This document shows positions 1 through 39,555 of a DNA stretch of 42,636 nt, in pieces. Positions within the stretch are counted from its first letter, which is position 1. The number at the start of each line of letters is the position of its first letter. The translations under genes were made by a program, and so were the position numbers. This DNA is from Lentibacillus juripiscarius JCM 12147. GTDB taxonomy: Bacteria; Bacillota; Bacilli; Bacillales_D; Amphibacillaceae. Location: positions 1-42,636 of the forward strand of contig BBCA01000023.1 in assembly GCA_001311805.1 (NCBI GenBank), given 5' to 3'. A model generated the notes under the pieces. It saw only the letters and a list, made by a program, of their open reading frames with translations. It ran no database searches and was not told the DNA's origin.

Positions 1-247
1 GATGGATGAAAATCCCCCCTTCTGCGAGGAGTGCTGTTTCACTGGAAAGCTTTGCAACACGACGAGACCATGCAAAAGCCCCATTGAGTACGCCTCAACC
101 TGCGAGGAATGCCGCTTCACTGAAAAGCTTGCAACACGACGAGCACCAAATGTATTTCCGTAGCTGGGTCATAGCACACAAATTGTTCACTACGTCGCAG
201 TTTATATCAACTGTAATGGAAAAACAATTGCGAGAAGATCCTCCACA
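1..247. mobile_element. Truncated copy of MITE-like element A (copy 1)
   Basis: The window opens inside a non-coding repeat. Its right end (about 191-240) matches the ends of the copies at 13.3, 21.9 and 38.9 kb: a CGCAGTTTATATCAACTG block followed by a GGAAAAACAA tract. Inside, a roughly 44-bp unit is present twice (22-66 and 100-143, 78-bp period), starting CTGCGAGGA and ending GCAACACGACGAG. Short reading frames here have no ribosome binding site and no family resemblance, so I do not call them. Confidence 0.6.
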
Positions 248-12645: not shown

Positions 12646-13250
12646 ATGGCACGATTTACCGGATCAGACTGGAAAAAATCACGCCGCCTTGGCATTTCAT
12701 TAACCGGAACAGGCAAGGAACTTGATAAACGTCCTTACGCCCCGGGAGAGCACGGACCTAATCAGCGCAAAAAAAAAATGTCTGAATATGGTCTGCAGCT
12801 ACAGGAAAAACAAAAACTTCGCTTCATGTATGGACTGAACGAACGTCAATTTCTCAGTTTGTTTAATGAAGCCGGCAAAATGAAAGGTGTTCATGGCGAG
12901 AACTTCATGATTTTGCTTGAATCCCGCCTGGACAACATCGTTTATCGCCTTGGTCTTGCGCGCACACGCCGTCAGGCACGCCAGCTGGTCAACCATGGTC
13001 ACGTAACGGTTGACGGCGGACGCGTTGATATACCGTCCTACCGCACGAAGCCAGGTCAAGTCATTGGATTGCGTGAACGTTCCCAAAACCTCGACACCAT
13101 TCAGGAAGCAATCGAAGTAAACAACTTCGTACCGGAATACCTGACGTTTGATGAGGATAAAAAGAAGGAACGTATGCACGTTACCCTGAACGTTCCGAGC
13201 TTCCAGCCGAAATTAACGAACCGCTTATCGTTGAGTTCTACTCTCGTTAA
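12646..13250 (+). CDS. rpsD: Ribosomal protein S4 (one apparent frameshift)
   Basis: Primary 16S rRNA-binding protein of the small subunit. It begins [19 protein letters not shown] and carries the S4 RNA-binding domain ([32 protein letters not shown]). The last 15 codons are out of frame: restoring one C at about 13204 gives [18 protein letters not shown] and a stop at 13250, for exactly the usual 200 aa. Without that base the frame runs on into the terminator. Because S4 is essential, the break is almost certainly an error. A terminator follows 13 bp later. Confidence 0.95.
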
Positions 13251-13263
13251 GGTCAGCACTTAT

Positions 13264-13311
13264 AAAGCTCCCAAACCTTTACTATATAAAAGGTTTGGGA
13301 GCTTTTTCATG
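13264..13311 (+). terminator. Terminator of rpsD
   Basis: AAAGCTCCCAAACCTTT and AAAGGTTTGGGAGCTTT form a perfect 17-bp stem around ACTATATA, followed by TTCA. It could also act on the other strand, against transcription arriving from element A. Confidence 0.92.
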
Positions 13312-13463
13312 CAAAGGTTGTTTTCGAAAAGATTGTTGCTATTCGCATCAAGAGGTTAGGATGAACCTTACTTAACATTCTATATAAACTGCGACGTATT
13401 GAAAACTCTCATTAGCGAGGCTATCTCCTGTTCTGATTACCATTAAGTTCTCAGCGATGCTCC

Positions 13464-13578
13464 GGCAATATACTTCGCTTTCCATGGGCACGGCCTCAGC
13501 CTCCTCGGAAAGCAAAGACCGCTTTCCTGTGGGGTCTTCAGACACGTGCTGTTCCCATAGGAGTCTGCGTATATTGCC
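13464..13578 (-). repeat. 115-nt structured core of element A (copy 2)
   Basis: Closed by a perfect outer stem GGCAATATAC (13464-13473) / GTATATTGCC (13569-13578). Inside are CCATGGGCACG pairing with CGTGC..CCCATAGG, and a small hairpin CCGC/GCGG within the GACCCCGCAG block (minus-strand reading). The same core at 22309-22423 differs at only a few positions. It resembles an abundant intergenic repeat of Bacillaceae genomes (ACTCCT..GGGAA, GACCCCGC, GAGGAGGCT, CCGCGGAAAGCGAAG; from memory). Strand of any transcript is unknown. Confidence 0.65.
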
Positions 13579-13703
13579 TCCGCTGGCACTGAAATTCTGC
13601 ATATTGAAAAGATGAAGCCCAAGAAAAAGAATTCAGCAGTCTTTTCTCTCACTTGGACAGAACACAACACCAAGCTGCAGAAAAATGCGACTCCTGCGGG
13701 AAA

Positions 13704-13760
13704 GGCAGGCTAAAACCGCGACGTCCTGTCGCAACGCCTGCATTAGCACGTCCTGTGCGT
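13704..13760 (+). ncRNA. Bacillaceae-1-like RNA motif (paired RUCCU hairpins)
   Basis: Two adjacent hairpins have GTCCT in the loop: GCGAC-GTCCT-GTCGC (13718-13732), itself enclosed by GCAGGC/GCCTGC (13705-13710, 13736-13741), and GCAC-GTCCT-GTGC (13746-13758). Paired hairpins with RUCCU terminal loops are the hallmark of the published Bacillaceae-1 candidate ncRNA. Its placement inside a repeated element is what I add. A covariance-model search was not possible. Confidence 0.55.
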
Positions 13761-14062
13761 CGAACAGTCTGAAGACCCCGCAGTGAGGGACGAACGAGGA
13801 GGCTGAAGCGTTCCCCGCGGCAAAGAAGACACTGCGAATGCGACCAAAGGAAGCTTGAGCAGATGTCGCGCTTGTACCCGGAGTGGTGAAAGCGAGTATT
13901 TTTCCGCAGCGATGAACTAGCACTCAGTCCTGATAGAATTAGGGAGAGACATCTAAAAAGTTGTGTCGCAATTTATATCAACTGCGAAAAACAACAACAT
14001 ATGCGAAAAGAGCCAATGCAAAAGATGTGAAATGGGAGCCGCTTTCGTAAACTCTACCTGAC

Positions 14063-17000
14063 TCATGCCTGTTGTGGCCAGTCTTTATACTGTTCTTCTG
14101 CTTCCTTCATGATTGCCTTTGTAATAAACTGCAGCTGCTGACCCTTTATACCTTCCCGCATCAGCACGTGCTTGACCGACATACTCACTTTCGCATAGAT
14201 ACTTTTTCGATGTTCACTGGTCCAATCCTGGCTTAGATTCTTTTTGAGCTCTTTGACTACTTTATGGATCAAGTCAGCCAGAAACTTATTGTCAAAAGCG
14301 TCCATTTCCAGTGATGTGACAGCTTTATAGAATTCCGCTTCTTCGTCAGACAGTCCAAGCTCTTTACGAAAATCCGCTTCGGTGTCGACACCTTTTTTCA
14401 TATCCACCATTACCCGGAGCACATCAGCAGCCTGAATGATCCGGTTATGATAATCGGAGAGTGTTTTCTCGAGCAATTCCCGCATTTCTTTTTCTTTCGG
14501 GCTGTTCTTTTTAAAATTTACCTGGATATGGTCTTCCAGCAGTTTCTTCAACAGTTTCAGCCTTAAATCTTCGTGCTGCTCCTTCTCTTCCATATCTTTT
14601 AAGAAATCTTCATCCAAAATGCTGATATCAGGTTTCTCAATGCCCGCCACCTGATAAATATCCACCGGGGCTTTCGTTTCCAGGTGCTGATCGATCATGG
14701 CATTGAGACGCTCTTCCACCGTCTGACTGGCTTTGGGACTGCTTTGTTGGGAGGTCAGATACTTTTTCACTTGAATCCGCACCATCTGATAGAGTGTCAC
14801 CTCATCGGCAAAAGGCAGAACGCCGTCAGTATGTTTCACTAGTTTATAGGCTTTTTCCAGCTTCGTACACGCTTCCACAAAATTTTCCGATTCACCGTTT
14901 AACTGCTGGTTGACGAGATCCCCGATTAAATCATCCCGATTCACCTTGGAAAGCGACCGCCAGTCATCACGATGCTCAAGCTCGCCGAAATAGGTTCGTA
15001 CTTCTTCCAGCTTCTCATGGAAAATTCCGATTGCCTGATCAATATCAATGTCCATATCATTAGCGGAGCCGTCGCCGGTATATTGATTGGTAGCTTCTTT
15101 CAGGGACGTGGCGATTCCGATAAAGTCAACAATCAGCCCGCCTTCTTTGCCTGGAAAAACACGGTTAACCCGTGCAATCGCCTGAATCAGGTTGTGTCCT
15201 TTCATCGGTTTATCGACATATAAAACGATAAGTTCGGCACATCAAAACCGGTCAGCCACATGGAGACGACGATGACCAATTTCAGCGGATCCTCTGTGTC
15301 TCTCAGACGGCTTTTGACTTCTTCTTGTTCTTCTTTCGTTTTAATATGGGCATAGTTGCTGCCCGGATTTTGCTCCCGCCATGATACCGGATCCTTGGAA
15401 ACATTACCGGTCATGATAATTTCCACTTCCGGACAGTCATCGTGGCTTTTCAACTCATCATATAAACGAACAGCAATGGAACGGCTCATGCAGACAATCA
15501 TGCCTTTTTGAACTGGATCTGCGGCCTGATTAAAATGATCCACAATGCTTCGCGACAGTCTGTTCAACCGTTTCGGTGTCCCTACAACTTTCTCAAGTGC
15601 TGCCCATTTCACCTTATACGACTGGGATTCTTCATCTTCCATGCCCACTTCATCGACTAAATTGGCGTATTCGCTGTCAATATCTGCTCCGTCAAAATCA
15701 AGCGGGATCATCCGGCTTTCATAATACAGGGGCAAAACAGCTTTATCTTCAACAGCCTGTGCCATATCATACTGGTGGATCACATGGCCGAAGATTGCTT
15801 CGGTGTTGTTGCCTAGCAAATTAACCGGTGTTCCGGTGAAGCCGACGAATGAAGCGTTGGGCAGTGCGTAACGAAGCTGGGCTGCATAGCCGCCGTCAAA
15901 ACCGCTCTGTGTCCGATGCGCCTCGTCAGAAATCACAATAATATTGCTTCTGTCAGACAGGACTGGGTGTTTGGCCTCGCCTTCTTTCAAGCGGAACTTT
16001 TCAATCGTCGAGAAAACGATCTGGCCGCCCTCCCCTTTCAAAATATCACGCAGTTCATCCGCCTTTTGTGCATGATGAATGTGCCCGATCAGGCTATATC
16101 CTTCCGAAAAATGTGTCATGCAGCTGTTCATCGAGGTCATTCCGATCCACCTGTACCACAATCGTCGGATTACCCAAATCCCGATGTTTCGATAAAATCG
16201 TCGCATAAAACAGCATGCTGATACTTTTCCCGGAACCGGTTGTATGGTACATGACCCCGATTTTCCGGTCACCATCTGGATTTGTTGCACGGACAGTTTC
16301 CTTCACGGCAAAATTAACCCCGAAATACTGGTGGTATTTGGCGCCGATTTTCACCTTAGATTCGCCTTTATCCAAGTAAACAATGAAGTTGCGAATATAG
16401 TCCAGCAGCCGCTCCTTTTGAAACAGTCCTTGGATTAACGTCCGCATCGTATTGGCAACGTTATTATCGACGTTGACCCCATCAATCGTCTTCCATGAAG
16501 CAAAGAAATCATAGGCTGCATCCGGCATGCCGTGCATCGTTTCGATACCATCGGAAATGACCGTGAACGCGTTGTATTCAAACAGCTGGGAGATGTCATG
16601 CGTATAATTGCGGATTTGCCTGTAGGCATCATAGACCGTTACATTTTCGATATTTGGATTCTTCAGTTCAAAAACAATGAGCGGCAAGCCATTCACATAA
16701 ATAATCACATCAGGTCTTCGCGGCATACGCCCTTCGATGGCCAACTGATTGACGACGAGAAAATCATTGTTTTCCGGCGTTTCCCAATCAATCGGATAGA
16801 CGTGCTGCACCTTTTCCTCTCCGTTCTTGTCTTCGTAAACAAACTCGACACCTTTAACGCTCTTTTGGTGGAAGTTAAAATTCCGCTCTTGCCAGCCAAC
16901 GCCTTCATTTAAAATAAACATATTTGCCAGTCCGCTGATCTCGCTGTCGGGAATCATGGAATACGTCTTTTGCAAAAAGGATTCCAGTCGCCCCCTCAAA

Positions 17001-17128
17001 ACAACTTCCTGATTCCGCTCGCGTTCCCCACGCTGGTACAGTTCCTGACCATGTGCATACGTATAGCCCAGATTCTCCAGCCGCTCGATCGTCGTTTCCT
17101 CAAAATCCGATTCCATTAACCGCCCCAT
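14063..17128 (-). CDS. hsdR: Type I restriction enzyme, R subunit HsdR (two apparent frameshifts)
   Basis: Motor and nuclease subunit of a type I restriction system (about 1,020 aa when corrected). The N-terminal nuclease site is visible as PDVIIYVNG and IVFELKNPN (D...ExK type). The helicase core follows with Walker A HTTGSGKSISM, VISDEAHRTQSG (DEAD-like), FVGFTGTPVN, and the motif VI region HNLIQAIARVNRVFPGK, then a long helical C-terminal part for HsdM contact. Breaks lie near 16128 and 15215, both conserved on either side. The ATG at 17128 is chosen: the GAGGGGG site directly after the hsdS stop fits it better than the ATG at 17134. Last gene of the M-S-R operon; no clear terminator seen. 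Confidence 0.92.
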
Positions 17129-17144
17129 GTTCATCCCCCTCTCT

Positions 17145-18374
17145 TTACTGCAACGCGCTTTCTACCGTTTCCTTGGCTTCGGATACGTCTATTTCGCCGG
17201 ATAGGAGTTTTGGCAGAAGGTAGTCGCGGGTTTGTTGTAGTATTAAACTTTCTTCGGTATTACATTTTATTTGTTTATCCCACTTACTGGCTAGTTCCTC
17301 GAATTTCTGAAGAGTACTATCCTCAGGAACAAGAACTTTTAAATTCTCCACATCTTTTTTATTTATAGAGTTAAATACAGTTCCCGAACCCATACTATCT
17401 ATTACTTTAAACACATCTCTTAGTTTATAATATAAAAAGGCCTGGTGACCGGACTTGGATCTAAGTCCACATAAACCACGACCAATGACTATTGATTGAT
17501 CAGCAACATTCATTCTTCCAACCGGAGCCCTGACACTTAACAAAATATCCCCACTATTAGCCACTTTCTTTTCAATCGTGGAAAAAGTTTGGTGTGATGG
17601 AAATCTAAAGCCAAAATCCTTTATGCCTTGGTGAAAAGGTAATCCGTTACCTTGGTTGTTATAATACTCAGATTTAGGTGACTGTCCCATATTTATATCA
17701 GCAAATTGATTAAGGGATACAACTTCCCACCCTTTTGGAATCATTCCTAACTCTGACTCTACAAACTCACTGTCCTGGAATGATCCAAAATCAACAACCA
17801 GTGTTTGTAAAGCGTCATGGCTATTTGTTCAAGTGTATGGTTGATTTTAGTATTAGTTTCAATTTTTTTGTCAATCGACCAAAGAATTGAAGTGATTTTG
17901 TTTTGTATATCCATAGGAGGTAATTTGATTTTAAATCTTTTTGCATCTGGTACACGAATATGACTTACTGTCGAGCCAGATCCTTCATGTGCTTTCATCT
18001 GATTTTGTAAAAATGGGCCCCTTAAGGAATAATATAAAAATTTGGGATCAACTTTCCTGTTATTTGCCCTATATTGCATCAACCTTTGTCCCAAAAAACC
18101 TTTTCATCTGTAGTTATTATTCCGACTTCTCCTAAAGGTGCCTCTCTGGTTAAAATCACATCATCTTTTGCGGAATCGATCTTCTTGTCCATTTTTGGTA
18201 TGTCTCTTTTGTTACATGGTTAACATTCGAAAGATTTATTCTTCCATCTCTTACATTAGTTGTACGAACCATTTTATAAGGTGTTTCATAGTTTACTTTT
18301 GGGGCCGTTTTATTCACACAATCTACTATCTCATCACAAACTTCATCCAATTTGAAATCTCTCCACTCACTCAC
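17145..18374 (-). CDS. hsdS: Type I restriction-modification specificity subunit HsdS (three apparent frameshifts)
   Basis: DNA-recognition subunit shared by the methylase and restriction complexes. Two target-recognition domains can be traced: one from WRDFKLDEVCDEIVDCVN to the helix DIQNKITSILWSIDKKIETN, and the second from PKGWEVVSLNQFADINMGQ to LQKFEELASKWDKQIKCN, each followed by the coiled spacer that contacts HsdM. Total of about 409 aa is normal. Three one-base losses in A/T runs (near 18192, 18077 and 17815) break the frame. Start is a GTG that overlaps the hsdM TGA as GTGA. The recognition sequence cannot be read from the protein. Confidence 0.88.
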
Positions 18375-19914
18375 AACACCCCCTCCAAATCCTTCTTAAT
18401 CTTCCCCTGGAGGCGGTTGGATTCTTCAAACTGCTCGAACAGCTTCGTCCTTAATTCTTCCATTTTTTCTTCAAATGGCACACCATCTTCTTCTACTTCT
18501 TCTGTACCGACATAGATTCCCGGTGTCAGTTTATAGTCGTTTTCTTTCACATCATCTATTGTTGCGACTTTGCAGAAACCGGGGACATCCTCAACTTTTT
18601 TCTCGTCATACTTAAACGTACGATAAACGTTGGCAATTTCATCGATTTCCTCTTCCGACAAGGCTTTTTGCTTCCGGCTTACCAGTGATCCTTTCTGCCG
18701 GGCGTCAATAAACAGAATGTCATTTTTCCGTTCGCGGTACTCACTTTTGCCATCACGGTTTTTACTCAGGAAAAAGAGACAGCACGGAATGCCGGTTGAT
18801 AAAAATAATTTTTCCGGCAAAGCAACGATACAATCAATATGGCCATTGTCCACAAACCATTCGCGAACAGGTTTTTCTCCCTTAGCATTCGTTGTCATCG
18901 CGCCATTTGCCATCACATAGCCGGCTGAACCTTCCTCATTCAAATGATGGAAGAAGTGCTGCATCCACATATAGTTGGCATTCGAATCCGTAACAGGGCC
19001 GATTAAACGCGGGTCATCATTGGAAACCCGATCTGCTCCCCAGCCGTCCTGATTAAACGGCGGATTAGCAATGACATAGTCTGCTTTAACATCCGCGAAC
19101 TGATCATCCAGAAGCGAATTGCCAAGGCGTATATCGGCGTTCATTCCATGCAGGAGCACATTCATTTTACCAAGGCGGGCGGTGGTTGTGACGTTTTCCT
19201 GCCCGTAAAAAGACAGCTCGTGCCGCCTCGGTGAATATTCTTCAGACTGGATGAACATACCCCCGGATCCGCACGCTGGGTCGAGCACCGTCCCTTTAAT
19301 CGGCTCAAGCATACGCACAAGCAGGCTAACGACGGAATATGGCGTATAGAACTCGCCCCCACGCTGACCTTCCGTCGAGGCAAATTCCGAGATGAAATAT
19401 TCATAGACCCTTCCAAGCACATCGACACTGCGTTCATCCTGGGCACTGAACACATCACGGGAGAAGATTTCAATCAAGCCGGAGACATTTTCAGCAGGCA
19501 AATTACTCCCCTGAAAAATACGCGGCAACATACCATCCAGATCTGGGTTTCCTCCTCTAAACGGTTCATCGCATTATCAAGAATTTCTTTGATATTCGGC
19601 TGTTTGGCATTCTTTAATATGTAGGACCAATGCGATTCTTCCGGTACGACATACACATTTTCCGCCATGTACATATCCGGATCCTCTTTCATAAATTGCT
19701 GTGTATCCTCATCAGGTACATACCAGTCACTCTTCGGATCCTTTACTAAACTATCAATTTCATCCCTGCGGAGTTCAAAACGATTCGATAAATAGCGCAG
19801 GAAAATTAAAGGCAACACATAATGTTTATAATCAGCCGGTGCCACACTGCCACGCATATTCGTAGCGGCATCGAACAAGTCTTTTTGAAAATTAATATCT
19901 GCTTTGGCAGGCAT
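18371..19914 (-). CDS. hsdM: Type I restriction-modification methyltransferase HsdM (one apparent frameshift)
   Basis: N6-adenine DNA methyltransferase subunit (about 515 aa). The N-terminal helical domain (FLRYLSNRFELRRDEID) is followed by GEFYTPYSVVSLLVRML, the SAM site LDPACGSGGMFIQS and the catalytic ANPPFNQDGWG (NPPF). The conserved GIPCCLFFLSKNRDG follows. One A is missing near 19547; restoring it joins EEENPDLDGMLPRIFQ. An AGGTG site precedes the ATG. First gene of the operon, transcribed away from the small plus-strand gene at 20.1 kb. The operon sits between rpsD and tyrS, which are neighbours in B. subtilis, so it was most likely acquired. Confidence 0.93.
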
Positions 19915-20581: not shown

Positions 20582-21852
20582 TTAACCGAAACGCACGAGG
20601 AAGTATTTCTTTTTCCCGCGTCTGATAATAGTAAATTGATCATCAATGCGGTCTGTTTCATCTACAGCATACTGCAGATCCTGCTGGCGTTCACCATTAA
20701 TATAGATTGCGCCGTTTTTGATATCTTCCCTTGCCTGTCGCTTGGAAGATGAAATAGACGCTTCAACGAGCAATTCAATCAGACCGATTTCCGCTTTGGA
20801 AGCTTCATATGTTGGCACATCTTTAAACCCTTGCTCGATATCGCCTACGGAAAGATCTTTCAAATCTCCGCTGAACAGTGCATCCGTTATTTTCTGCGCC
20901 TGCTGCAAATCTTCCTTGCTGTGAACCATTGCTGTCATTTCTTCAGCCAGCCGCTTCTGTGCCAGCCGTTGTTCCGGACGGTTTTCCAGTTCATTTTGAA
21001 GTTCATCCAACTCGTCTTGCTCAAGAAATGTAAAGTAGTGTAAAAACTTCATGACATCTCGGTCATCGGTATTAATCCAGAACTGGTAAAATTCGTACGG
21101 TGTTGTTTTTTCGGATCCAGCCAGACAGCACCACCTGCCGTCTTGCCAAATTTGCTGCCATCCGCTTTCGTAATCAGCGGTACAGTCAAACCGAAAACAT
21201 GAACTTCCTCTTCTTCATTTTCCCGGGAGCGGCGGATAAGTTCCATGCCTGCCGTTATATTCCCCCACTGGTCACTGCCGCCAATTTGCAGGGTGCAGTT
21301 CTCCTGCTCATGCAATTTTAGAAAATCAAGCGACTGCAGAATCATGTAGCTGAATTCGGTATAGGAGATGCCCTCTTCAATCCGGGCTGATACCGATTCC
21401 TTACCCAGCATGTAGTTGATTCCAAAATGTTTGCCGGCATCACGGAGAAAATCAATGACCGACATGTTCCCAAGCCAGTCATGGTTATTCCGGGCACGTG
21501 CTGCATTGGAGCCGGAATCGAAATTAAGCAGCCTGGCCAGCTGCTGCCGTATTTTGTCACTATAACCGTGAACAACGGATGCCTCATTCAAGGAACGTTC
21601 TGCTGAGCGGCCGCTTGGATCGCCAATCATCCCTGTTCCGCCGCCAATCAGAGCAATCGGTCTATGGCCGGCTCGCTGGAAACGTTTCAGCATAATAATC
21701 GGCAGCAAGTGCCCGATATGCAGGCTGTCGGCCGTCGGATCAAAGCCACAGTATAAAGTCACTTGATTTTCGTTTAAATGCGTTTGTAATCCTTCTTTGT
21801 CTGTCGTCTGCTGTACTAGACCGCGTTTTTCAAGATCCTGTAAAATGTCCAT
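20582..21852 (-). CDS. tyrS: Tyrosyl-tRNA synthetase (one apparent frameshift)
   Basis: Charges tRNA-Tyr. [19 protein letters not shown] contains the HIGH signature, [15 protein letters not shown] lines the tyrosine/ATP pocket, and [13 protein letters not shown] is the KMSKS loop. The C-terminal S4-like domain is present ([21 protein letters not shown]). Adding one A near 21105 joins [20 protein letters not shown] and gives about 423 aa, the family length. I use the ATG at 21852, which has a GGAG eight bases upstream; the longer upstream reading frame has none. Its T-box leader is intact but lies about 700 nt upstream, beyond element A copy 3. Confidence 0.95.
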
Positions 21853-21890
21853 TGCTTTCACTCCAATTTTTAGTGTTTTACATAAAAATA

Positions 21891-22542
21891 AAAGGCTATT
21901 TTCTAAAAGACTGGTTGCTTTTTGCCTCACTCTAGTGAATAAAACCCTGCTGAACAATTTATATAAAATGCGACATAACCTTTTGAATGCCTTTCCCCAA
22001 TTCTATCGGGACTGAGTGCTAGCTCGTCGCTGCGGAAAAACACTCGCTTTCACCACTCCGGGTACAAGCGCGACATCTGCTCAAGCTTCCTTTGGGTGCA
22101 TTCACAGTGTCTTCTTTGCCTGGAGCAGCAGCTCAGCCTCCTCGGAGCAAAAAACGCTCACTGCGGGGTCTTCACTTGCTGCTCTTCCCCTAGGGGTCTC
22201 GCATTTTTCCGCAGCTTAGTGTCGTGTTCTTTCCTAGCGAGAGAAAACTCTTTAGAACTAATTTCATTGGTTTCAACATTCAATATGCAGAACTTCATTG
22301 CCAGCGGAGGCAATATACGCAGACTCCTATGGGAACAGCACGTGTCCGAAGACCCCGCAGGAAAGCGGTCTTTGCTTTCCGAGGAGGCTGAGGCCGTGCC
22401 CATGGAAAGCGAAGTCTATTGCCGTAGCGTCTTTGAGCACTTAACAGTAATTAGAACAGGAGATAGCCTCGCTAATGAGAATTTTCACTATGTCGCAGTT
22501 TATATCTACTGCACTGAAAGACAACAAAGCTTACGAAAAGGC
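21891..22542. mobile_element. MITE-like element A (copy 3), inside the tyrS leader region
   Basis: A 652-bp non-coding element, the reverse complement of copy 2 over most of its length. Ends: AAAGGCTATTTTCTAAAAGA on the left and, on the minus strand, GCCTTTTCGTAAGCTTTGTT on the right, each followed inward by ATATAAA(A/C)TGCGAC. The 115-nt core is at 22309-22423; the block 22018-22093 matches 13848-13925 inverted. It lacks the RUCCU hairpin pair of copy 2, having different sequence at the corresponding place. It lies between the T-box terminator and tyrS. Confidence 0.75.
22309..22423 (+). repeat. 115-nt structured core of element A (copy 3)
   Basis: Outer stem GGCAATATAC (22309-22318) against GTCTATTGCC (22414-22423), which has one mismatch relative to copy 2's perfect stem. 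ACTCCTATGGGAACAGCACG, GACCCCGCAGGAAAGCGG, GAGGAGGCTGAG and CGTGCCCATGG follow in order, all able to pair within the unit. Confidence 0.6.
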
Positions 22543-22549
22543 AAAATAA

Positions 22550-22835
22550 AAAAACGCCCCTCGCAAAAGCTAAGGGACGAGTATGTACTCGCGGTACCAC
22601 CCTTGTTACACATGTATACCTGTGCCACTTCAGGGTTTCTAACGGTGATGCCACCGTCTTCCCCCGGAAACAATCCGACCCCGGCCAAAATCTGGCTGTT
22701 TCCAAAAGAAGATAGCTCCAGATTGTAATTCGCCTGCAAATGTGTACTGACTCCCACCGCCCGTCAGCTCTCTGTTAACAGCGATTTGCGTAGCTACTCC
22801 GATCCTTCAGCGCGTATGATATAACATTATTCTCT
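22550..22835 (-). promoter_or_regulatory. T-box riboswitch leader for tyrS
   Basis: On the minus strand the T-box sequence AGGGTGGTACCGCG (22590-22603) is exact and is followed by a terminator: CGTCCC pairs with GGGGCG, then a run of seven T (about 22550-22580). Upstream, Stem I features are visible (GAGCTGAC / GTCAG enclosing GGGCGGTGGGA), and a GAATTACAATC segment supplies a UAC tyrosine specifier. Uncharged tRNA-Tyr pairing would favour the antiterminator. It points at tyrS, with element A copy 3 in between. Confidence 0.9.
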
Positions 22836-29428: not shown

Positions 29429-30235
29429 TGACATGTTCCCCAGTCATTTTAGTGTCCTCATTCGGTTCCTTCGCGGTTTCATTGGAAAGGAATGCACGCA
29501 ATTTTCCTCCAGGATCCTTGGATTTTGCCCGGACTGAACACCAATAACACCTTCAATGATGATTTGTCTGATAAACATTTCCTCTTCCGTCTTCTGCTCC
29601 AACTTATTTTTCATCGGAATAAAGACAAGATTGGCCAGGACAGTTCCATACAATGTCGTTAAAAGGGCAACCGCCATATTCGGCCCAAGTGTTGCTGGGT
29701 CAGTAAGGCTATTAAGCATGAGGACGAGCCCGACCAACGTTCCAATCATCCCCCAGGCCGGTGCGTATTCTCCTGCCTTTTCAAGAATCGCCCGTCCACG
29801 ATAATGACGCTCCTCCATGGCTGTAATTTCCGCATTCATGATATCTGAAATCACTTCGGGCTCTATTCCGTCGACAGCCAGCAGAATTCCTTTTTTCAGA
29901 AATTCATCATCCACTTCGTCCATTTCATTTTCCAACGCTAAAATACCTTGCCGGCGGGCACGTTCCGCCAAATGGATAAACTTCTCAACAAGTTCCGTCA
30001 TCCGCTGATCGTTCTTATGGAATGTTTCCTTGATGACGTTACCGGTTAATTTAATTTGCTCCATTTTAAAATTAATCAGGAGTGATGCAGTCAATCCGCC
30101 GATAACCACAAAAATAGAAGCAACATCCAAAAAGGAAGAGACTCCTTCCGTTCCTCCCTTGGAAAGGATTGCTAGCATTATCATAATAAACCCAAGTGTA
30201 ATGCCGATTGGTGTCAGTATATCTGTTTTTCGCAT
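29418..30235 (-). CDS. motP: MotP, Na+-type flagellar stator subunit (frameshift near the end)
   Basis: MotA-like stator protein with four membrane helices: [37 protein letters not shown], then [20 protein letters not shown] and [20 protein letters not shown], with a charged cytoplasmic loop that engages FliG. In Bacillus MotPS uses sodium and supports motility at high pH or salt. A missing A near 29506 changes the tail; corrected ([20 protein letters not shown]), the frame ends with TAG at 29418, overlapping motS by about ten bases. GGGAG ribosome binding site. It follows ccpA in the same direction. Confidence 0.92.
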
Positions 30236-30300
30236 TGTCTCGCTCCCCGGAACCTTGTTGAAACCTATGAGACAGGTTACTTCTTATATCGGCATATTGA

Positions 30301-31294
30301 TCAGTTTGTTGAGTTTCTTTCGACAATCCGATGCGGAAGAATGACTTTTTCTCCTCCACTTCTTCCTTATTCATATATTTGGTCAATAGACGCATGGCAA
30401 CAGCACCAATATCATACATTGGCTGTACGATGGTAGACAGTGTCGGGCGTACCATGGTTGCCAGTCTTGTATTGTCAAACCCGAAGACCTCAAGATCTTC
30501 CGGTACTCGAAAGCCCCTGTCCTGGGCCCCATGAATGACTCCCAATGCCATTTCATCTGAGGCAACAAATACGGAAGAAGGCTGTTCGTCTTTGGCTAAA
30601 AGCTGTTCCGCCGCCTCCAGACCTGAGTCATAGGAATAATCACCTTTAAGAATGTACGCATCATCAAGAGTGACAGACTTTTCTTCATGTGCCCGCACAT
30701 AGCCATTATATTTCTGTTTATTGATTAGCGTATCATCGACACCAGAGATGAACGCAATTCTGGTGTTTCCTTTCTCAATCAAATAAGAAGTTGCCTCAAA
30801 TGCTGCAGCTTCATAGTCAATATTCACCGATGGAATTTTGTCCGTTTCATCATAGGTTGCTGCCAGAACAACCGGTACGGATGAACTTTGGAACTGCTCC
30901 ACATGTTCCTCTGAAATATCGCCACCCATGAACAAAATTCCATCTACCTGCTTCTCCAGCATGGCATTAATAAGGCGCAATTCTTTATCTTTGTTCTGAT
31001 CAGAGTTACTCAAAATAATATTATACTTATACATCGTCGCAATATCTTCAATGCCCCGCGCCAGTTCAGCAAAAAAGATACTGGAAATATCTGGAATAAT
31101 GGCACCTACCGTTGTTGTTTTTTACTTGCCAATCCGCGGGCAACCGCATTTGGACGGTACCCAAGTTCCTGAATCGTTGCCAGAACCTTCTTGCGTGTTA
31201 CCGGTTTTACATTCGGATTACCATTGACAACCCGTGAAACAGTTGCCATAGAAACATTCGCTTCTCTTGCTACGTCGTATATTGTTACTGTCAT
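30301..31294 (-). CDS. ccpA: Catabolite control protein A (two apparent frameshifts)
   Basis: LacI-family global regulator of carbon catabolite repression that binds cre sites with HPr-Ser-P. N-terminal [20 protein letters not shown] / [11 protein letters not shown] is the LacI helix-turn-helix; [11 protein letters not shown] is the hinge helix. The effector domain follows ([37 protein letters not shown]). One A is missing near 31122 ([20 protein letters not shown]) and one base near 30340, where correction restores [13 protein letters not shown] and a stop at 30301. Corrected length of 331 aa is typical. GGAGG precedes the ATG. It sits between aroA and motPS, the conserved Bacillus order. 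Confidence 0.94.
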
Positions 31295-38781: not shown

Positions 38782-38989
38782 ATGTATCCACTCATTTCTA
38801 TCAAAATAGCACTGTCTTCAGTTTACCAATTTTTGTGTCGAATGGGAGGATAAAAAGGGCTGTTTTCTAAAAGATTGTTGTATCCAGAGAATGAAGCCCT
38901 GCTGAACAATTTGTATAAACTGCGACACAGCAGACCACTCCGGGCAGTCGCTTTCACCCATAGGGCATAAGCGCGACGTCTTCTCCGAC

Positions 38990-39030
38990 GAACAGGATGT
39001 TCCAGGGTCGGCGTTGTCATAGGACTTGAC
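38990..39030 (-). ncRNA. Bacillaceae-1-like hairpin pair (minus strand)
   Basis: Read on the minus strand: GTCA-AGTCCTA-TGAC (39016-39030) followed by GAAC-ATCCT-GTTC (38990-39002), that is loops containing GUCCU and AUCCU, both fitting RUCCU. The arms differ from copy 2 while the loops are kept. Confidence 0.5.
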
Positions 39031-39113
39031 GAATATAGCGACGTCCTTTTCACAGCGTCTTCTTTACCGCGGGCACGGCTTCAGCCTCCTCGCGGAAAAG
39101 CGAAAAAGCTGCA

Positions 39114-39262
39114 GAAAAGTCCGTGAGAAGGTTTCTCAAGGCCATAAACCACCCAAAAGTGGGCCGAAAAGTCCGTGAGAGGGCTTCTCAAGGCCATAAA
39201 CCATCCAAAAGCGGGCCGAAAAGTCCGTGAGAAGGCTTCTCAAGGCCAAAAGCCCGCCCGAT
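39114..39262. repeat. 52-bp tandem repeat, three units, in element A copy 4
   Basis: Units begin GAAAAGTCCGTGAGA at 39114, 39166 and 39218, the last one incomplete. Each holds a small hairpin GAGAAGGTTTCTC (changed to GGCTTCTC in later units) and a GGCC...GTGGGCC palindromic segment. Units differ by a few bases. Confidence 0.8.
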
Positions 39263-39369
39263 AATAACGTGACGTCCTGTCGCATTATCGGCACTAGCAC
39301 GTCCTTGAAAAAGAAAATCGCTTTTTCTTCGCGCGATGTGTTGCTGTCAAAGCCTTCCCTGTCCTGTGC
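39257..39369 (+). ncRNA. Bacillaceae-1-like hairpin pair, interrupted by a 60-bp insertion
   Basis: First hairpin: GTGAC-GTCCT-GTCGC inside GATAAT/ATTATC, intact. The second, expected as GCAC-GTCCT-GTGC, is split: GCACGTCCT ends at 39305, and after 60 bp a second GTCCT (39361-39365) is followed by GTGC. The 5-bp GTCCT is thus duplicated at both edges of the insert. Confidence 0.5.
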
Positions 39370-39403
39370 GTCGTAAATTCCTGATTCGTTCAACTAACAT
39401 TCA

Positions 39404-39480
39404 GTCTGGGAGGAAGGGGCAGGCTAAAATCGCGAAGTCCTTGTCGCAACGCCTGCACTAGCACGTACTATGCGTCGAAC
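39404..39480 (+). ncRNA. Degenerate Bacillaceae-1-like hairpin pair
   Basis: GGCAGGCTAAAATCGCGA, loop AGTCCTTG, then TCGC and GCCTGC match the copy 2 motif at 13704-13741. The second hairpin has GCACGTACTATGC, with a GTACT loop, so it has drifted. Confidence 0.45.
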
Positions 39481-39555
39481 CCCCCACTTAATGAATTTTC
39501 ACTTTCTATCTACATCTGTACTGGAAAAACAACCAAGTTTACGAAAGGAGCCATA

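Follow-up and report, generated by a model that had tools for sequence, protein, structure and literature searches.

The 42,636-nt stretch of Lentibacillus juripiscarius JCM 12147 DNA that we analysed (contig BBCA01000023.1; hereafter the window) carries a family of gene-less repeats that are non-autonomous members of the IS1595 family of transposons, which they match both in their terminal inverted repeats and in the 8-bp length of their target duplication. We propose that such IS1595-derived elements act as carriers of small palindromic inserts, and that one of these inserts, the Bacillaceae-1 hairpin unit of Rfam, represents a second mobile layer; we put the probability of this reading at roughly three in four. 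An earlier note, made from the sequence alone, had described a family resembling MITEs, in which constant ends with terminal inverted repeats enclose exchangeable, structured RNA-like cargo. Its interpretation is partly supported: the family, its ends and its exchangeable palindromic interiors are as described, and the modules recur in unrelated contexts, but the RNA-like character of the hairpin module did not survive our analysis.

Gene-less copies in the window and their ends

Three complete copies and one truncated copy had been reported, and we located all four. Copies 1, 2, 3 and 4 of the earlier numbering are D, A, B and C, respectively, in the following list.

1..241, unstranded: copy D, right part, cut by the window start; outer end placed by eye
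45-66 and 122-143, within copy D: a unit duplicated about 77 bp apart, with an inner repeat at 194-213
13316..14014, unstranded: copy A, complete, 699 bp, non-autonomous; 8-bp flanks CATGCAAA and AATGCAAA, matching at 7/8 positions
13382..13608, + strand: interior block 1 of copy A, comprising the core palindrome and the inner repeat ATATAAACTGCGAC; complementary at 93% to positions 22279-22505 in copy B
13694..13759, + strand: Bacillaceae-1 module of copy A (RF01690, 62.2 bits, cut-off 35)
13795..13984, + strand: interior block 2 of copy A, 87% complementary to 21955-22144 of copy B; its last part is the inner repeat GTCGCAATTTATAT
21894..22543, unstranded: copy B, complete, 650 bp; flanks AAATAAAA and AAATAAAA by eye; interior inverted relative to copy A
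22570..22819, - strand: T-box leader of tyrS (RF00230, 107.8 bits), directly upstream of copy B in the direction of tyrS
38858..39552, unstranded: copy C, complete, 695 bp; flanks ATAAAAAG and ATAAAAAA, matching at 7/8 positions
38989..39052, - strand: Bacillaceae-1-like module of copy C (31.3 bits, under the cut-off of 35)
39111..39266, + strand: three tandem 52-bp units of copy C
39258..39305, + strand: third, partial Bacillaceae-1-like hairpin of copy C, by eye; no Rfam match
39410..39474, + strand: Bacillaceae-1-like module of copy C (28.1 bits, under the cut-off of 35)

All window copies lie between genes, and the four longest ORFs tested inside them (96, 210, 81 and 85 aa) had no Pfam match at E 0.001, in agreement with the earlier description of them as intergenic and free of a transposase. 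The earlier description also held for the common ends, for the core shared by A and B and the hairpin module shared by A and C, for the tandem units in C and for the unit that D has in duplicate. The likeness of A and B went further than had been noted. An alignment of copy A with the reverse complement of copy B matched in 493 of 614 columns, and the left-type and right-type outer ends of the two copies were swapped in it; thus, the common interior, which is bounded by the inner repeats ATATAAACTGCGAC and GTCGCAnTTTATAT, is inverted relative to the ends. Recombination between these inner repeats probably produced the inversion. The Bacillaceae-1 module of copy A is absent from the same spot in copy B and from a related stretch in locus L120, which provide two empty counterparts.

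Copy A lies 3' of the rpsD terminator, as judged by eye. Copy B separates the tyrS start codon from the T-box terminator upstream of it, and is one case in which an insertion of this kind was seen in a tyrS T-box leader. The distance from T-box to tyrS is 750 nt in the window versus 50-185 nt in 50 of 52 measurable relatives (80 loci; the start codon was placed by distance alone in 3 of the 52). Subtracting the 650 bp of copy B and the 8-bp duplication leaves 92 nt, which matches the expectation for an empty site. In the other two of the 52, both from Lentibacillus genomes, the distance is 248 nt (L002) and 524 nt (L026); by eye, each bears its own insert immediately downstream of the terminator of the tyrS T-box, where copy B lies in the window. 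The RNA fold of copy A gave a z of −7.4, to which we attach no weight, since folding is expected of palindromic DNA in any case.

Type I restriction-modification genes (T1RH-like and N6_Mtase) adjoin copy A at window positions 14063-19914, between rpsD and tyrS. Genes for ribosomal protein S4, a type I restriction subunit, tyrosyl-tRNA synthetase and a LacI-type regulator appeared by eye to be frameshifted or split, and split-looking genes were seen at 12646-13359, 15202-17134, 21049-21957 and 30072-31034, among other places. Splits in conserved genes suggest uncorrected indel errors of the assembly; therefore, indels within the window elements should be read with caution. AcuC encoded in the window is 76% identical to that of Virgibacillus subterraneus, which places the DNA near Lentibacillus and Virgibacillus.

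The ends of the family are GGCTnTTTTC...TTGTTG terminal inverted repeats of about 25 bp. A first scan of genome contigs with the exact pattern gave no match. With up to three mismatches allowed, the end motif was present in 36 of 41 related Bacillaceae genomes, at up to 168 matches per genome (G013 168, G021 145, G018 78, G026 74, G005 72), versus 0-2 matches per strand for a reversed-motif control. At least one match occurred in 173 of 299 genomes class-wide, but in most of these the number was small and close to that of the control; high counts were limited to a handful (G241 196, G013 168, G238 86).

We then compared the 8-bp flanks of 48 end pairs that had been picked blind to their flanks. 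The mean match was 6.25 of 8 positions versus 3.49 in shuffled pairs (maximum 4.35 in 2000 shuffles), and 25 of the 48 pairs matched at 7 or 8 positions (shuffled mean 0.98, maximum 6). The 8-bp register alone was enriched, registers 6, 7, 9 and 10 having no such peak. Copy B was outside the 48 pairs, its right end having been missed by the pattern, and its 8/8 flank match needs the right end at 22543, placed by eye. One further element with GGCTnTTTTC-type ends (L126, 1501-2331) has an interior of 12.1 tandem 51-bp units.

The combination of fixed ends and swapped interiors had been called unusual. It is known from the BOX elements of Streptococcus, for which the excerpted text of PMC3049150 describes fixed ends (boxA and boxC), variable inner modules, terminal repeats and duplications, structure if transcribed and, in S. 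suis, two end types with a common boxB. Judged from that text, BOX is the nearest architecture to the window family. The window family differs from BOX in its genera, in having at least one palindrome that also occurs alone and in other repeats, and in that its transposase family has been identified.

Bacillaceae-1 modules and their sites

The hairpin that the earlier note had labelled 'RUCCU' is Bacillaceae-1 (RF01690), a two-hairpin unit of about 65 bp. It was found in 33 of the 41 related genomes, with at least 75 copies in the richest, and class-wide in at least 67 of 299 genomes (up to 16 candidates scored per genome). For B. subtilis 168, PMC8208703 gives a number of no fewer than 8 copies. 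Across the 41 genomes, the copy numbers of module and end motif were uncorrelated (Spearman rho 0.07, p 0.67). Five genomes (G010, G015, G022, G024 and G034) combined 30 or more modules with no more than one end, and two others (G032 and G036) had at least 30 ends and no module. The module also has other hosts, which we classified with loose motif limits and without a shuffled control. Nineteen loci of G003 fell into seven near GGCTnTTTTC ends, eight in an unrelated AAAGTGAA repeat and four in neither; among 19 loci of G034, five were near GGCTCTGTTAA ends, seven were in a GCGCAGGCG repeat (one in both), seven had the core only and one had none. No host could be assigned for 18 of the 29 other loci classified. 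Because the modules spread independently of the ends, the GGCTnTTTTC element is better regarded as one of several hosts than as the sole collector. That is, the earlier suggestion of an element that collects structured units stands insofar as the element carries exchangeable palindromes, but it does not hold for this element as the only one doing so.

Bacillaceae-1 was also found in the spacers of rRNA and tRNA genes. It directly abuts 5S in L096, L100 and L102, overlaps the 5' end of 23S by three bases in L107, and ends 2 bases before tRNA-Val in L101. With each of 30 genomes represented by its best 5S-region locus (L288-L317), six of these loci contained the module; adding spacers L318-L337 gave 17 matches at 15 distinct places in seven genomes (G001, G002, G003, G012, G021, G033 and G039). 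All 17 matches were in sense orientation and just 5' of 5S, and the copies beside the tRNA (L101) and 23S (L107) genes had the same placement. Operons of a single genome differ in this respect. Among the aligned 23S-5S spacers of G021, the module is present in L100, L319, L321, L322 and L323 and missing from L318, L324 and L325 (L320, outside that alignment, has it too), and the flanks of L319 and L318 align at 92%. In G033, two of seven spacers had the module.

A match to the joined flanks, resembling an empty site, was obtained for 88 of 107 Bacillaceae-1 copies under loose limits (18 nt per side, at most 25 gap positions) and without a shuffled control. Many of these sites are clean; others replace about 20 bp, as in the comparison of L196 with window 22309-22434. 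The palindromes were probably inserted at such sites rather than lost from them. Alternatively, exchange between repeats, through homologous recombination or gene conversion, could account for the spread of the modules without any insertion. The repeats are indeed abundant and similar, A and B have long blocks in common, and several of the empty sites look like replacements; however, the flanks of Bacillaceae-1 in rRNA spacers, in the tRNA spacer and in the repeat families look unrelated, and therefore offer little homology to recombine. We regard spread by recombination as unlikely. Insertion of the palindrome, our preferred reading, raises the question of by what means a unit of 65 bp enters rRNA operons.

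DNA-like evolution of Bacillaceae-1 stems

An RNA helix tolerates G-U pairs on its own strand, whereas a DNA palindrome treats G-T and A-C equally. In an alignment of 23 gap-free Bacillaceae-1 copies, 98.0% of the cells pair (slid controls 31-40%) and 13 of 17 pairs show double changes, while no pair shows a one-sided standard change and there is no G-U. To keep this alignment gap-free, 13 of 36 rows were left out (L101, L110, the three window modules and eight rows whose second stem is longer); the excluded rows except L100 were rescored in an alignment of 107 matches. We obtained a similar picture from 98 distinct copies, aligned with a model built from the 23: the stems are 96.5% paired, with 396 double versus 9 single-side changes, and the cells comprise 1555 Watson-Crick, 10 G-U, 24 A-C and 33 other combinations. 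The controls gave 984 Watson-Crick, 160 G-U, 3 A-C and 3 other cells for 5S (32 sequences), and 1936, 323, 12 and 99, respectively, for the T-box (72 sequences, from L001-L080 and the window).

A structured RNA is expected to have G-U well above A-C in its stems, and in the 98 copies it was not. Because nearly all changes in the stems are double changes from one Watson-Crick pair to another and G-U does not exceed A-C, we concluded that Bacillaceae-1 evolves as a DNA palindrome and not as an RNA, contrary to the RNA-like nature attributed to the hairpin module. A family of orphan 'RNAs' is thereby connected with mobile DNA, and the count of G-U versus A-C in stems is a simple test that could tell DNA palindromes apart from RNAs in families defined by covariation. 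The stem pattern would follow from selection acting on a DNA hairpin as well as from template switching in which one arm serves as the template for its partner, and the data fit both equally; the sense orientation next to 5S is explained by neither.

Weinberg et al. 2010 mark Bacillaceae-1 with a 'Y' in Table 1 (PMC2864571), which in that table means certainly RNA, and list it as probably not cis-regulatory. The module of copy A scores above the cut-off of this family, but the module differs from the family as filed in its DNA-like stems and in being a dispersed insert, with the copy number given above for the richest genome, that also enters rRNA and tRNA spacers. Could it nevertheless be a functional small RNA, duplicated along with its host repeats and kept in structure by its RNA function? 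The covariation is strong, and the sense orientation against 5S in every match of the seven genomes, repeated at a tRNA and a 23S gene, agrees with such a role, as does the published mark. In contrast, the near absence of G-U, which is no commoner than A-C, is unlike 5S and the T-box of the same genomes, and the module is missing from some rRNA operons of one genome. On balance we consider a functional small RNA unlikely.

The placement beside mature RNA genes also bears on the DNA reading, since sense-only 5' insertion at 5S, tRNA and 23S is not predicted for a pure DNA parasite. A claim bolder than that of the window family itself is that Bacillaceae-1 is itself mobile DNA. The palindrome of about 65 bp would then represent a novel type of minimal mobile unit, one for which no transposase is known, and would insert into transposon-borne repeats and, one way round, at the 5' borders of the mature 5S, 23S and tRNA sequences, with IS1595-type elements as its vehicles. 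We advance this only tentatively, and on present evidence would not bet on it. Among known sequences, it is comparable to REPs and Rickettsia palindromic elements in being a small dispersed DNA palindrome; the CGTC-tagged palindromes, some Rickettsia palindromic elements among them, likewise have no assigned transposase in the excerpted text of PMC3733652. It differs from them as a two-hairpin unit nested in transposons, with no RAYT link found. In searches of open-licence papers, no title or abstract opening pointed to a treatment of Bacillaceae-1 as mobile DNA, or of elements of this type from Bacillaceae.

IS1595 relatives and candidate movers

End pairs 1.6-2.1 kb apart in the class-wide motif search pointed to full-length elements. 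An uninterrupted transposase ORF, the same ends and exact 8-bp duplications were found together in L358, in L338/L363 (1893 bp) and in L340/L362 (2133 bp). The duplication is TAAAATTT in both L338 and L340, and ATAATTAA in L358, an element of 1880 bp in the Ornithinibacillus halophilus genome (G038) with ends that have 0 and 1 mismatches to the motif used. The transposase belongs to the IS1595 family (NF033547.1, E 4.2e-64; PF12762, E 7.8e-14; the assignment was tested on L338, and PF12762 on L341 too). A coding transposon with the same ends, for which the earlier note had suggested looking, thus exists. Seven of 18 IS1595 loci (L358-L375) have GGCTnTTTTC-kind ends, L370 among them with 2 mismatches at each end; three have GGCTCTGTTAA-kind ends with exact duplications, and the remainder have weaker or no recognisable ends. 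By eye, the GGCTCTGTTAA ends seen at module loci, and likewise the ends of those Pontibacillus elements in which the same modules occur, are similar to a second IS1595 subgroup (L361, L367 and L375). An archaeal MITE derived from ISHwa6, also of the IS1595 family, is listed in the excerpted text of PMC3852290 at 165 bp with an inverted repeat of 25 and a direct repeat of 8, which agrees with our assignment.

We compared five coding elements with A, B, C and 18 elements of G013, and found that gene-less and coding copies have the terminal 21-53 bp alone in common (B gave no match at E 0.01). The left end of copy C matched L358 at 95.8% over 24 bp, and the left end of copy A matched the right end of L362 at 92.3% over 26 bp. 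Because homology is limited to these termini, the gene-less copies are not simple internal deletions. The earlier note had named two outcomes that would speak against it, namely that the modules never share ends or that they are remnants of one ordinary coding transposon; the modules do share ends, and it is the ends alone that match the coding elements.

The same comparison bears on the possibility that the window copies are ordinary MITEs, derived from one IS1595 element by internal deletion and with decayed interiors. Ends and duplications identical in kind to those of IS1595 elements are what such an origin predicts. Yet the homology stops after the termini, none of the five autonomous elements compared has an interior like those of the window copies, discrete interior modules are common to unrelated repeats, and the interior common to A and B lies in opposite orientation to the ends; we therefore judge this origin distinctly improbable. 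The window family resembles IS1595 insertion sequences and their MITEs in its ends of about 25 bp, its 8-bp duplication, the existence of transposase-bearing elements with the same ends and the further ORFs of these. It departs from IS1595 MITEs in that its interiors are mosaics of palindromic modules and not short deletion derivatives, and in that up to 168-196 end motifs occur per genome, often without any IS1595 transposase. Of the 52 genomes searched for the transposase gene, 14 had it, 13 of them with a score above the cut-off. It was found in none of ten end-rich genomes (G001, G005, G013, G018, G021, G025, G026, G032, G036 and G241), where the elements may no longer be mobile.

For carriage of palindromes by IS1595-derived elements, we envisage the following mechanism from the sequence comparisons. 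An IS1595 transposase acting in trans would recognise the terminal repeats and insert the element into A+T-rich sites with duplication of 8 bp; mobilisation in trans is thus the probable route for the gene-less copies. The interior between the ends would be free to vary, holding further ORFs in autonomous relatives and DNA palindromes in gene-less copies. Palindromes, of which Bacillaceae-1 is the clearest, would have as insertion targets not only these elements but also at least two further repeat families and the spacers of rRNA and tRNA genes, and the interior would be reshuffled by inversion between inner repeats and by tandem duplication. Many intergenic repeats of halophilic Bacillaceae would then be explained as IS1595-derived vehicles with exchangeable palindromes.

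As movers of Bacillaceae-1 itself, three candidates found no support. IS1595 was set aside because end and module copy numbers are uncorrelated. A reverse transcriptase was not favoured by a search of 21 of the 41 genomes, in which RVT_1 was missing from 7 of 13 module-rich genomes and present in 7 of 8 module-free ones. The third candidate was a RAYT (Y1) transposase, with the hairpin modules as REP-like sequences. Both REPs and modules are small DNA hairpins, and Y1 genes, many RAYT-like in length, occur in 36 of the 41 genomes; but Bacillaceae-1 lay within about 1 kb at 0 of 20 sampled Y1 loci, several of which have other hairpins beside the gene, Bacillaceae-1 and Y1 numbers do not track each other (rho 0.05), and G001 (at least 51 copies) and G024 (at least 70) have no convincing RAYT by match length and score, all of which makes movement by RAYT very improbable. 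The other hairpins at the RAYT-like Y1 genes (L268-L287) are short palindromes of their own, for example GGGACAGAGGGTCTGACCCTCTGTCCC or GTGCCTGGCACGC, as seen by eye.

For the outer ends, our first guess had been the ISL3 family, which has GGCTCTT ends of similar start and, in these genera, 8-bp duplications (exact in 15 of 28 loci), but this attribution now has next to no chance: 0 of 28 ISL3 loci have GGCTnTTTTC ends as their own, the best end-motif match has at least 5 mismatches in 27 of the 28, the 2-mismatch match found at L243 lies apart from the exact-duplication ends of that locus, which are of another kind, and IS1595 elements with these very ends exist.

The further ORFs that stand beside the IS1595 transposase differ among L338, L339, L340, L342 and L358, all of the same end type. 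L339 has a metallophosphoesterase ORF (Pfam), L342 has a broken transposase, and L358 has an XRE-like ORF, as judged by eye.
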